From Aneurinibacillus terranovensis DSM 18919 (lineage in GTDB: Bacteria > Bacillota > Bacilli > Aneurinibacillales > Aneurinibacillaceae), in assembly GCF_000430625.1 (NCBI RefSeq), contig NZ_KE387175.1:35769-93009 (forward strand): 57,241 nt of DNA. The letters run 5' to 3'. Under the pieces are notes generated by a model that saw nothing but the letters and a program-made list of their open reading frames with translations, searched no databases and was not told the origin of the DNA. Each line of letters begins with the position of its first letter. Position 1 is the stretch's first letter. Shown piece by piece: positions 165-49,126 of the stretch. The position numbers and the translations under genes were made by a program.

Positions 165-383
165 TCATTTTTTCGTAAACTTACCCGGGAGGATCCTGTC
201 GAGCACTTCCCCCAAGTCCTCTTTATTATCAAATTTACTTCCCAAATAAAACCCGGCTGCCACAAACACGGCAAAAATAATCGTTTTAAAAAAGCCTACC
301 AATAAAAATAGAAGGCCAAAAATAAACCCAGCCGTTACTCCTAACGCTTTTCCCCTGTTTTCCTGAATGAACTGCCAGAACAT
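165..383 (-). CDS. DUF2273 small membrane protein
   Basis: A 72-residue protein with two close hydrophobic segments (about residues 12-45), then a charged tail rich in D, E and K. This is the pattern of the DUF2273 family, whose members sit beside AmaP and Asp23 proteins in Firmicutes. The ATG at 381-383 is preferred because a GAGGGG ribosome site lies five bases upstream; an upstream GTG would overlap that site. The gene begins 11 bases after the amaP stop, so the two are probably co-translated. Role by context: a membrane partner of the Asp23/AmaP envelope-stress complex. No catalytic motif is visible. Confidence 0.82.
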   Translation of the reverse strand: MFWQFIQENRGKALGVTAGFIFGLLFLLVGFFKTIIFAVFVAAGFYLGSKFDNKEDLGEVLDRILPGKFTKK

Positions 384-393
384 AGGCACCCCT

Positions 394-963
394 CTATTCT
401 ACCCGGCGCACGCGTCCGCCTGCTCCGGAAGCCACATCGGTTACAGTCACAGTGACTTCAGTAATGGTAATTCCCGCGATTGATTCCACATGTTCTTTAA
501 TCTTTTGCTGTACCTGCGCAATCAGGTCAGGAATCGGTGTTTCACCGTCAACCAGCGTTCGGACATGGACAAACGTTCCACTTTCTTCCGGCCTTATTTT
601 TACTTTCAAGTCGCGCACGCCGCGCACTCGCCGCGCTGCATGCAAAGCAAGGCTTTCCAGTGTTTCTAACGTAATCCGCACGTCGCCGAGTTCGGTAGGC
701 TTGCGCACGGTATGGGAAGCCGCATCCCTCCGCTGTCCGCTTCCCCGCAGGCTGGTAAGCAGGAATTTGACACTGATGATTAAAAAAATCACCGCGGCTA
801 CAAAATAAATGAGGCTCGTTTGAGTTGATGAGTATACATCCTCAATGCCATTAACAATCCATTGATACGAAATAAGATTGAGGCTCATCGCCATAACAAA
901 CAGGGAGATGACGACGAGGGCCAGACTGTAAAGGGTTAAGACAAACCGGTCAAATAGATTCAC
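394..963 (-). CDS. amaP: alkaline shock response membrane anchor protein AmaP
   Basis: A 189-residue protein. Two transmembrane helices lie in the N-terminal third (about residues 8-30 and 48-70), followed by a soluble domain with the beta/alpha character of Asp23-like proteins. In Staphylococcus AmaP anchors Asp23 to the membrane, and the gene order yqhY-amaP-DUF2273 here fits that role. GTG at 961-963 is chosen as start because AAAGGAGG lies six bases upstream; a longer frame exists but has no ribosome site. A hairpin ending in T's lies between yqhY and this gene, so its expression may be attenuated. Confidence 0.85.
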   Translation of the reverse strand: MNLFDRFVLTLYSLALVVISLFVMAMSLNLISYQWIVNGIEDVYSSTQTSLIYFVAAVIFLIISVKFLLTSLRGSGQRRDAASHTVRKPTELGDVRITLETLESLALHAARRVRGVRDLKVKIRPEESGTFVHVRTLVDGETPIPDLIAQVQQKIKEHVESIAGITITEVTVTVTDVASGAGGRVRRVE

Positions 964-982
964 ATATACCCTCCTTTGTAAA

Positions 983-1007
983 AGCAAGACCCCAGAGGGG
1001 TCTTGCT
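983..1007 (-). terminator. hairpin overlapping the yqhY stop, upstream of the amaP SD
   Basis: An 11-bp perfect stem (983-993 with 997-1007) with a three-base loop is followed on the minus strand by TTTT. It starts inside the yqhY stop codon and ends just before the amaP ribosome site. It looks like a weak intrinsic terminator that would reduce amaP and DUF2273 expression relative to yqhY. Confidence 0.65.
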
Positions 1008-1416
1008 AACGAACTCGGTGAACGTCTTCGATAACAGGAACGACTTTCTTTTCCTGCTTAAGCTGAACATCCACAATATGTACATTAACTTGCGTTACAT
1101 TCAATCCAGTCATATTCTGTATAGAATTGCTTACATTCTCCTGCACTTTGTGGGCGACATCCGGAATGGGGTATCCGTATTCCACAATAATATATACATC
1201 GACGGTCGCTTCCTTCTCGGTTATATCAACCTTGACGCCGCGCCCGCTTGATTTACGTCCCAGCCGTTCTACCAGGTCTCCAACCAGTCCGCTTCGCAAA
1301 TCGGTAACCCCATTAATTTCAGAGGTTGCCATATAAGCAATCACTTCTATCACTTCAGGTGCAATTTCAATTTTACCTAAATCCAGTTGCAGTTGTCCGT
1401 TTATACTCGGATCCAA
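1006..1416 (-). CDS. yqhY: Asp23/Gls24 family envelope stress protein YqhY
   Basis: A 136-residue Asp23 (DUF322) protein covering the whole domain, with the typical motif GVTDLRSGLVGDL and C-terminal NVTQVNVHIVDV. The likely start is TTG at 1414-1416, eight bases after the AGAGGAGG ribosome site; the upstream GTG at 1423-1425 overlaps that site. In B. subtilis yqhY is linked to accB-accC, and its loss is reported to select for acetyl-CoA carboxylase mutations, so it is thought to tune fatty-acid synthesis. The same linkage is seen here. An internal promoter and a ribosome-site-masking inverted repeat lie directly upstream. Confidence 0.88.
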   Translation of the reverse strand: MDPSINGQLQLDLGKIEIAPEVIEVIAYMATSEINGVTDLRSGLVGDLVERLGRKSSGRGVKVDITEKEATVDVYIIVEYGYPIPDVAHKVQENVSNSIQNMTGLNVTQVNVHIVDVQLKQEKKVVPVIEDVHRVR

Positions 1417-1420
1417 AAAC

Positions 1421-1504
1421 AACACCTCCTCTAAAGCATATGTATACGCCTATTATAGCAACGCTTACGCTATAAGACAATTTTAATGCTTTAAAGGAGG
1501 TGTT
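1421..1504. repeat. 19-bp inverted repeat flanking the yqhY promoter
   Basis: Arms 1421-1439 and 1486-1504 pair with one mismatch. The arm next to yqhY is its ribosome site; the other arm, just after accC, carries the complementary CACCTCC. In an RNA read through from accC the two arms would pair and hide the yqhY ribosome site. An RNA started at the promoter between the arms would lack the masking arm. Confidence 0.75.
1452..1480 (-). promoter_or_regulatory. sigma-A promoter of yqhY
   Basis: The minus strand reads TTGTCT (complement of 1475-1480), a 17-base spacer, then a perfect TATAAT (complement of 1452-1457). It lies between the accC stop and the yqhY start, so yqhY-amaP-DUF2273 can be transcribed apart from accBC. 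Confidence 0.8.
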
Positions 1505-1507
1505 TTT

Positions 1508-2860
1508 TTATTCCTCTATTGGAAGTGTATGTGTCTCAAGAAACTTCGTATTAAAGTCACCCTCAACAAACTTGTCATGTTCCAGCAGTTTTAAGTGGAA
1601 AGGAATCGTGGTGTGAATTCCTTCGATTACAGTTTCTGACAGGGCCCGCTTCATACGTTGAATGGCATCATTTCTGTCTTTGCCCCAAACGATAATTTTC
1701 GCAATCATCGAGTCATAGAACGGGGAAATTTCATAGCCTTGATAAGCTGCGCTGTCGACACGCACCCCAAACCCGCCCGGCGGAAGATAAATATTAATTT
1801 TACCGGGGGATGGCATAAAGTTTTTCGCCGGATTCTCGGCATTAATACGGCATTCGATCGCCCACCCGTTGATTTTTACATCTTCCTGAGAGAAGGAAAG
1901 CGGGTAATCGGCGGCAACCATAATTTGTTCTTTGATTAAATCGATGCCTGTAATCCACTCGGTAACCGGGTGTTCCACCTGAATCCGCGTATTCATCTCC
2001 ATAAAATAAAATTTTCCGGAAGAATCAAGCAAGAACTCAATCGTTCCGGCACCGTGATAGTTAACGGCTCTGGCCGCGGCCACTGCTGCGGCCCCCATCT
2101 GATGGCGAGTTTCTTCATTCAGGGCCGGGGACGGTGCTTCTTCAACAAGCTTTTGGTGACGGCGCTGAATAGAGCAGTCACGCTCTCCCAAATAACAAAC
2201 GTTTCCATGTTTATCCGCGATAATCTGGATTTCAATGTGGCGTGTATCCTCTAAATACTTTTCGAGGTAGACGCCGGGATTACCAAACGCGGCTTTTGCT
2301 TCCTTCTGCGCCTGGCGGACAGAAGTAACCAGTTCTTCTTCGTTGCGGGCGACCCGCATGCCTTTGCCGCCGCCGCCGGCCGTTGCTTTAATAATAACGG
2401 GATACCCCGCTTCTTCCGCGATTTTCACCGCTTCATCAATATCTTCGATCAAGCCGTCCGTTCCCGGAACGATCGGAACTCCGGCATTTTTCATCGTTTC
2501 GCGGGCAATGTTCTTATCCCCCATTTTTGTAATGGCCTGCGGGTCTGGTCCGATGAAGGTAATGTTGCACGCTGCACAAATCTCCGCAAAATCGGCATTT
2601 TCCGCAAGAAAGCCGTATCCCGGGTGGATGGCATCCGCACCTGTCATCGTTGCTGCGCTCATAATGTTGGTTAAATTTAAATAGCTGTCTTTGGAAGCTG
2701 TAGGGCCTATACAATACGCTTCATCCGCGAGGCGAACATGAAGCGCATTCCGATCGGCTGTGGAAAATACAGCAACTGTTTTAATCCCCAGTTCACGGCA
2801 CGCCCGGATGACCCGGACCGCAATCTCTCCACGATTGGCTATCAATACCTTTTTAAACAT
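1508..2860 (-). CDS. accC: acetyl-CoA carboxylase, biotin carboxylase subunit
   Basis: A 450-residue protein, the usual AccC length. It carboxylates the biotin on AccB using ATP and bicarbonate, the first half-reaction of malonyl-CoA synthesis. Seen: N-terminal domain [19 protein letters not shown], glycine-rich ATP-grasp loop [12 protein letters not shown] (about 157-168), and the metal/biotin motif [14 protein letters not shown] near 285-300. The ATG at 2858-2860 follows a GGGAGGAG ribosome site. It begins 12 bases after accB and is clearly co-transcribed. accA and accD are not in the window. Confidence 0.97.
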
Positions 2861-2872
2861 AGAGGCTCCTCC

Positions 2873-3403
2873 CTACTCTGCCTTCACAAGGAAGAGAGGT
2901 TGTCCATACTCAACAAGCTGTCCGTCTTCGACGAGTATTTTTACGATTTCACCGGTTACCTCGGCTTCAATTTCATTGAAGAGCTTCATCGCTTCCACAA
3001 TGCAAACGACCGTATTATTTTTCACCTTGTCTCCAACCGATACATAATCAGGAGCACCCGGTTCCGGTGACTTATAGAACGTTCCTACCATCGGCGAAGT
3101 GATTTTGTGGAAATTGGCGTCGTCTACATCAGCGCTTGCGCTTGGAGCGGGAGCCGCCGGAGCCGCCTGCGGTACGGGTGCAGGAGCTTGAGGCGCAGCT
3201 GGTGCCGAAACCTGTGGAGCCACCGGAGCCGGAGCCGCCTGCGGAACAGGCGCTGCCTCAACGGTGCGCACGGCGACCGCCGGAACACCTTCAACCCCTT
3301 TTTTTATGCAAATCTTCGTTCCATCTTCTTCGACTTTAAATTCGGTAATAGTGGACTGGTCAATAAGCTTGATGATTTCTCTAATTTCATGAATCTTGAA
3401 CAT
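2873..3403 (-). CDS. accB: acetyl-CoA carboxylase, biotin carboxyl carrier protein
   Basis: A 176-residue protein. It has an N-terminal helix pair (1-40), a linker of proline and alanine (about 45-100) and a C-terminal biotinyl domain. The biotin lysine lies in EAMKLFNEI (about Lys140); the usual motif is EAMKM, here with Leu after the Lys. It carries the carboxyl group between AccC and the AccAD transferase. It is the first gene of the accBC-yqhY unit; a TATAAT-like box on the minus strand at 3464-3469 could be its -10 element, though no good -35 is visible. Confidence 0.96.
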
Positions 3404-48094: not shown

Positions 48095-49126
48095 TTAACC
48101 CAAGTTAATTTCCTTCGGGGTCACTTGCGCGATCTTCACCGGACGGCCTTCTACTAACGATTTTTTCGCAGCATGAGCAATCAGTTCCGCCTGTAAACCA
48201 TCATTTCCGTCCACAGGAACATCCTTACCATATAACACGCTGTCAATAAACGCTTTGGTTTCTTCTACATAGGCCTCTCGATATCGTTCCAGGAAGAAAT
48301 ACTTCGGCTTATCCGCAATAACCCCATCAACTGTACTTACTTCGGCAGTGCTGGGCAGATCATTCTTAATGTTAACACAGCCTTTGGAACCAAATACTTC
48401 TACGCGCTGATCATACCCATAAACCGCCTTTCGGCTGTTATCAATGATGCCAAGGGCACCATTTTTAAATTTTAGGCTGATGATCGCCGTATCAACATCT
48501 CCATATTCCGCAAAGACAGGGTCGACCAATACCGCCCCTTGGGCATAGACTTCCTCTACATCACTACCGGATAAAAAGCGAGCGATATCAAAATCATGGA
48601 TGCTCATATCGATAAACATCCCGCCAGACACCTTAATATACTCACTTGGAGGAGTTTCCGGGTCTCTGGAGGTAATCTTGATTACATAAGGTTCCCCTAT
48701 TTTTCCAGCCTCTACGATTTCGCGAACTTGTTTAAAATTATGATCAAATCGGCGATTAAAGCCGGTTTGGAACTTTACCCCGCATTCTTGAACCACTTGA
48801 AGAGCTTGTAGGGTTTGCTCCAAATCAAAGCTGATTGGCTTCTCGCAAAAAATGTGTTTCCCCGCTTTCGCCGCTTCGGTGATTACGGAAACATGCGTAT
48901 GCGTTGGAGAGCAAATAAAAACCGCATCAATTTCAGGGTCATTCAAAATATCCTGATAATCCTTGATCACTTTCGGGATGCCAAAGCTTTCTGCCCAGGA
49001 TTGGATTTGATCGGGAAAAATATCTGAAATCGCTCTAATTTCCACCTGCGGAATCCGCACCAGATTTTCTGCATGTAATTTACCTATTCTTCCTGCTCCA
49101 ATAATTCCGATTTTGACTGTTTCCAT
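48095..49126 (-). CDS. iolG: inositol 2-dehydrogenase, Gfo/Idh/MocA family (copy 1)
   Basis: A 343-residue oxidoreductase. Rossmann motif GIIGAGRIGKLHAENL, catalytic Lys in EKPISFD, and DMSIHDFDIARF with the active-site Asp and His. It oxidises myo-inositol (or a stereoisomer) at C2 with NAD. ATG at 49124-49126 follows GGGGATGGAG; a longer frame starts inside no recognisable site. It has its own operator and promoter upstream and terminator downstream. Confidence 0.88.
   Translation of the reverse strand: METVKIGIIGAGRIGKLHAENLVRIPQVEIRAISDIFPDQIQSWAESFGIPKVIKDYQDILNDPEIDAVFICSPTHTHVSVITEAAKAGKHIFCEKPISFDLEQTLQALQVVQECGVKFQTGFNRRFDHNFKQVREIVEAGKIGEPYVIKITSRDPETPPSEYIKVSGGMFIDMSIHDFDIARFLSGSDVEEVYAQGAVLVDPVFAEYGDVDTAIISLKFKNGALGIIDNSRKAVYGYDQRVEVFGSKGCVNIKNDLPSTAEVSTVDGVIADKPKYFFLERYREAYVEETKAFIDSVLYGKDVPVDGNDGLQAELIAHAAKKSLVEGRPVKIAQVTPKEINLG

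Follow-up and report, generated by a model that had tools for sequence, protein, structure and literature searches.

The window, by which we mean the whole 57,241-nucleotide stretch of Aneurinibacillus terranovensis DSM 18919 DNA that was analysed, carries on its minus strand the genes accB (2873..3403; biotin carboxyl carrier protein, Pfam Biotin_lipoyl) and accC (1508..2860; biotin carboxylase, Pfam Biotin_carb_N/C), the latter being the upstream gene of an operon that continues into yqhY (1006..1416). YqhY belongs to the Asp23 family (Pfam PF03780, E = 9.8e-37), and its gene is followed on the same strand by an amaP-like gene (394..987), for which Pfam places an Asp23 domain in the C-terminal part, and by a gene for a small DUF2273 membrane protein (165..389; Pfam) that is the expected end of the yqhY unit. 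A terminator-like site was located by sequence scan at 129-104, beyond the DUF2273 gene. The order accB-accC-yqhY is the same as in Bacillus subtilis, where these genes are described as a tricistronic operon and YqhY is linked genetically to acetyl-CoA carboxylase (PMC5437119). Our family sample consists of 11 genomes of Aneurinibacillus and its relatives, which are mutually related and not independent; accC is followed by yqhY in all of them, and an amaP-like gene lies downstream of yqhY in every case.

The likely start codon of yqhY is a TTG at 1416-1414, located 8 nt downstream of a GGAGG sequence and assigned on the basis of its spacing from the Shine-Dalgarno sequence and a comparison of relatives. 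Two other in-frame candidates, GTG at 1425 and TTG at 1422, were rejected because they lie within or too near the Shine-Dalgarno sequence. Most yqhY genes of the family (loci L001-L014) likewise seem to start with TTG behind a U-rich spacer, whereas those of the outgroup mostly start with ATG or GTG.

The gap between accC and yqhY is spanned by an inverted repeat of 19 bp. Its first arm (AACACCTCCTTTAAAGCAT, 1486..1504, minus strand), which carries an anti-Shine-Dalgarno sequence, starts 3 nt past the accC stop codon (1510-1508, minus strand), and its second arm (ATGCTTTAGAGGAGGTGTT, 1421..1439, minus strand) includes the yqhY Shine-Dalgarno sequence (GAGGAGGT, 1424..1431, minus strand). The sole mismatch places a T opposite a G, which is a U·G wobble in the mRNA, and a longer version of the repeat covers 24 nt with 92% complementarity (1486-1509 and 1416-1439, with 46 nt between). 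The 46-nt loop (1440..1485, minus strand) contains an entire promoter for yqhY, consisting of a −35 element TTGTCT (1475..1480, minus strand), a 17-nt spacer and a −10 element TATAAT (1452..1457, minus strand) that is preceded immediately by the extended −10 sequence TGC, and thus by the characteristic TG. Judging from promoter spacing, the expected transcription start at approximately 1444-1447 also falls within the loop. An earlier sequence-only reading had described a 19-bp repeat with one mismatch, a pairing of the yqhY ribosome site with its complement (ATGCTTTAGAGGAGGTGTT with AACACCTCCTTTAAAGCAT) and a sigma-A promoter (TTGTCT, 17 bases, TATAAT) between the arms, and our analysis confirms all three, with the refinements that the mismatch can pair in RNA and that the whole promoter is held in the loop. 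The RNA corresponding to 1530-1390 is predicted to fold with −48.6 kcal/mol, compared with −24.2 kcal/mol (sd 3.4) for shuffled sequences (z = −7.15; 0 of 200 shuffles).

Accessibility of the ribosome site was expressed as an opening cost, defined as the energy needed to unpair six Shine-Dalgarno bases; these values apply to isolated RNA at 37 °C and leave transcription kinetics aside. For yqhY in the window, the predicted cost is 16.6-19.0 kcal/mol in the long RNA and 2.0 kcal/mol in the short RNA that would begin at the inner promoter. The same separation is predicted in all 11 family genomes, with 14.3-19.7 kcal/mol for the read-through RNA versus 2.0-8.0 kcal/mol for the inner-promoter RNA. 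These results uphold the earlier proposals that RNA read through from accBC hides the yqhY Shine-Dalgarno sequence, which folding predicts in 11 of 11 genomes, and that RNA from the inner promoter lacks the blocking arm, given that all 11 genomes have the promoter between the arms and the site is predicted to be far more accessible. As a background, we surveyed 1.66 Mb of the host genome, in stretches, with gene starts called by a simple script. Among 844 genes the median opening cost was 3.3 and the 99th percentile 11.0 kcal/mol, and the long form of yqhY (19.0) ranked first, 4.6 above the second. By this measure the long form is an outlier and the short form is unremarkable.

The runner-up in this survey (14.4 kcal/mol; L170:17400-17520) lies upstream of a spoIVA-like gene, where AACCCTCATAAGA faces TCTTTGAGGAGG at a distance of about 59 nt. 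Elsewhere in the host genome, short hairpins (TCCTC...GAGGA) cover the ribosome sites of two small insertion-sequence-like genes (L145:11180, minus-strand offset, and L144:7886) and possibly guard against read-through expression.

Arms flanking a TTGT-17/18-TATAAT promoter in one and the same orientation are present in all 11 family genomes, where the TTGT of the −35 element and the TATAAT of the −10 element are invariant, the arms are 46-60 nt apart, and the YqhY proteins are 68-79% identical to that of the window. The inner fold around the −10 element differs between genera and was left out of the element definition. A covariance model of the element yielded one strong match per family genome (11 copies, each with E below 1e-13) and no strong match in 288 further genomes of the class, where the best E was 0.0016 (299 genomes in total). 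A dispersed element is ruled out by this distribution of single strong matches within the family and weak ones elsewhere.

The sequence-only reading had staked its proposal on pairing being conserved among relatives, and pairing is indeed kept in 11 of 11 genomes, with both compensatory changes and wobbles on the mRNA strand. Of the 132 cells that the 12 pairs of the core stem give across the 11 genomes, Watson-Crick pairs account for 108 and mRNA-sense G·U pairs for 22; A·C does not occur, and the remaining 2 are mismatches of other kinds. Pairing therefore reaches 98.5% of the cells on the mRNA strand versus 81.8% on the complementary strand. G·U and A·C are equally reachable from the Watson-Crick pairs by single transitions (108 to 108), and the 22 G·U cells sit on six pair positions, which implies at least six events. 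The presence of mRNA-strand G·U without A·C points to selection on RNA of the accC-to-yqhY strand and not on a DNA palindrome. Read from the alignment, this polarity is the trace expected of an accC-to-yqhY RNA, and not of a DNA-binding or recombination site.

Double changes that preserve pairing occur at three pairs and in 5 cells, compared with 1.3 in shuffles, none of which reached 5 (0 of 500). One is an A-U to G-C change near the stem base in G005 and G007, another is a U-A to C-G change in the middle of the Shine-Dalgarno sequence of G004 (GGAGG to GGGGG, facing CCTCC to CCCCC), and the third exchanges C-G and U-A at another stem pair. Given that the 11 genomes are related, these may amount to only about three independent events. 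When the partner was slid by 1-3 columns, at most 71% of cells were paired, versus 97.8% in register, and RNAalifold recovered the stem unaided from the same alignment.

On the basis of these characteristics, we judge it likely that the accC-yqhY gap acts as a promoter-gated translation switch that would insulate YqhY from acc transcription. RNA that reads through from accBC would contain both arms, and a stem of about 19 bp would bury the yqhY Shine-Dalgarno sequence, such that this RNA would yield acc proteins and little or no YqhY. RNA initiated at the loop promoter would begin a few bases before the second arm and lack the first, which would leave the ribosome site usable. The gene's own sigma-A promoter would then set the level of YqhY, and probably those of AmaP and the DUF2273 protein, apart from acc transcription; this promoter probably drives yqhY, amaP and the DUF2273 gene jointly, and not yqhY alone. 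What the analysis shows directly is the anatomy of the gap, its conservation and covariation, the polarity of the strands and the predicted accessibility of the site; the existence of both RNAs, the untranslated state of yqhY on the read-through RNA and the purpose of the arrangement are inferred. Two features speak against a tight block. With 46-60 nt between the arms, a ribosome might arrive at the site ahead of stem closure, and in the window species and a congener the stem would, according to the model, be partly opened by a ribosome at the accC stop codon, which would allow leakage. We also entertain, as a rather speculative extension, that strong accBC transcription overruns and weakens the inner promoter, so that YqhY would fall as acc transcription rises; this would be inverse control within one operon, a counterpart of the 'long undecoded transcript' of yeast.

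Among other explanations, the most serious is that the stem works chiefly as a terminator, complete or partial, of accBC and that its 3′ arm happens to coincide with the Shine-Dalgarno sequence of yqhY, such that the read-through RNA is simply ended; we consider this possible, albeit appreciably less probable than not. At least 5 of the 8 nucleotides past the stem are T in all 11 family genomes, a density that is reached in the 8 nucleotides before the start codon by only 42 of 848 host genes (a similar, not identical, position). Moreover, a terminator scan, which takes loops of 3-8 only and hence does not call the hairpin itself, found no other terminator-like site in the accC-yqhY gap. On the other hand, six genomes have an interrupted T run (TTTTGTGTT, TTTTATATT, TTATTTATT, TTATTTTAT), the separation of the arms is far above the loops usual for terminators, and a plain terminator could precede the promoter and would have no need to cover the Shine-Dalgarno sequence exactly. 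A partial terminator role would point the same way as a translational block and is compatible with it. We regard as doubtful the view that the stem serves translational coupling, in which yqhY translation on the operon RNA would depend on ribosomes finishing accC and thereby opening the first arm. The immediate proximity of this arm to the accC stop codon in the window favours such coupling, as does the finding for the window species and G001 that a modelled ribosome at the stop codon halves the opening cost, which drops to about 8 kcal/mol. In the nine other family genomes, however, the stem begins 6-12 nt past the stop codon, and the modelled ribosome alters the cost little in eight of them (15.5-19.0 kcal/mol; 9.7 in G008). 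Given this small effect in eight genomes, coupling to accC is not the conserved property, and its plausibility is confined to the window species and G001, whose stems lie at or beside the stop codon.

Two further readings carry much less weight. A promoter set between inverted repeats of 16-24 bp has the shape of a phase-variable switch, and the repeat could be an invertible promoter segment or the operator of a regulator acting at the DNA level. We consider this very improbable, because all departures in the core except the two mismatches are mRNA-strand G·U, with no A·C, because the promoter has an identical orientation in 11 of 11 genomes and both orientations were not seen among the relatives, and because the repeat covers the Shine-Dalgarno sequence and, in contrast to typical recombinase sites, has imperfect arms in most species. 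That the inverted repeat arose by chance and has no function draws on nothing beyond the general abundance of complementarity between Shine-Dalgarno and anti-Shine-Dalgarno sequences. The probability of this reading is negligible in view of the fold score (z = −7.15), the first rank among 844 genes and the retention of the element in 11 genomes whose YqhY proteins have diverged to 68-79% identity, and conservation together with covariation refutes it.

Comparison with more distant genomes offers some indication of how the proposed switch was assembled. Members of the class outside the family that have a long accC-yqhY gap often have a similar promoter (TTGTAA-17-TATAAT, TTGTCA...TATACT), and the blocking arm is absent in these long-gap loci, where opening costs are 0.1-9.1. 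The outgroup promoters without an arm suggest that the promoter is older and that the arm was added in the family; as judged from these sequences, the blocking arm is probably a family-specific addition. Where downstream sequence was examined, a long gap goes together with amaP, and usually the DUF2273 gene, behind yqhY, whereas in the short-gap loci L030, L032 and L033 no hairpin was found and neither amaP nor the DUF2273 gene was detected behind yqhY. It may therefore be the whole yqhY-amaP-DUF2273 group that the inner promoter serves. In three relatives from the order (G011, G013 and G014; loci L015, L016 and L018), an accB-like sequence immediately precedes yqhY; accC was not found within the examined stretches of these loci and seems to be located elsewhere.

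The working principle of the proposed switch is already known, and the yqhY case would be a new, well-conserved instance of it. In phage T4, the ribosome site of gene e is hidden in a helix of a long RNA, which reduces translation approximately 100-fold, and late promoters located immediately before the site produce RNA that lacks the 5′ strand of the helix and is translated (PMC3014915). Long upstream RNAs likewise hide the ribosome sites of soc, 49 and I-TevI in helices, and for I-TevI, too, the principle is established (PMC3014915). As in gene e, an upstream arm is predicted to pair with the yqhY Shine-Dalgarno sequence (in 11 of 11 genomes) and the promoter lies between the arms. Unlike T4, where early and late timing is set by a phage sigma factor, the yqhY element resides in a chromosomal housekeeping operon and has a sigma-A-type promoter, and its hairpin has no sequence relation to the T4 leaders. 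A bacterial precedent has been proposed for B. subtilis sigG (spoIIIG), which lies behind spoIIGA-sigE; as recounted in PMC5942855, citing Masuda 1988 and Sun 1991, a hairpin of 20 or more bp would block read-through translation and cannot form in RNA from sigG's own promoter. The yqhY element would work like the sigG and T4 cases and is unrelated to them by sequence; sigG differs in that it encodes a sporulation sigma factor and has a sigma-F/sigma-G promoter. The sigG gap of the window genome itself (L090, C2, about 48700-48850) has facing CCCCTCC and GGAGGG arms that resemble the hairpin proposed for B. subtilis sigG, with a predicted opening cost of 7.0 kcal/mol, weaker than at yqhY.

Our literature search returned no earlier report of such a switch at the accC-yqhY locus. 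The setting of this instance is a housekeeping operon, and neither a phage nor a sporulation gene. It offers a caution that belonging to the same operon need not equal having the same expression, as well as a signature that can be searched for, namely Shine-Dalgarno and anti-Shine-Dalgarno arms around a promoter, with G·U on the mRNA strand only. For the biology of YqhY, the element is a conserved indication, open to testing, that selection across an entire bacterial family has favoured separating the output of this protein from accBC read-through.
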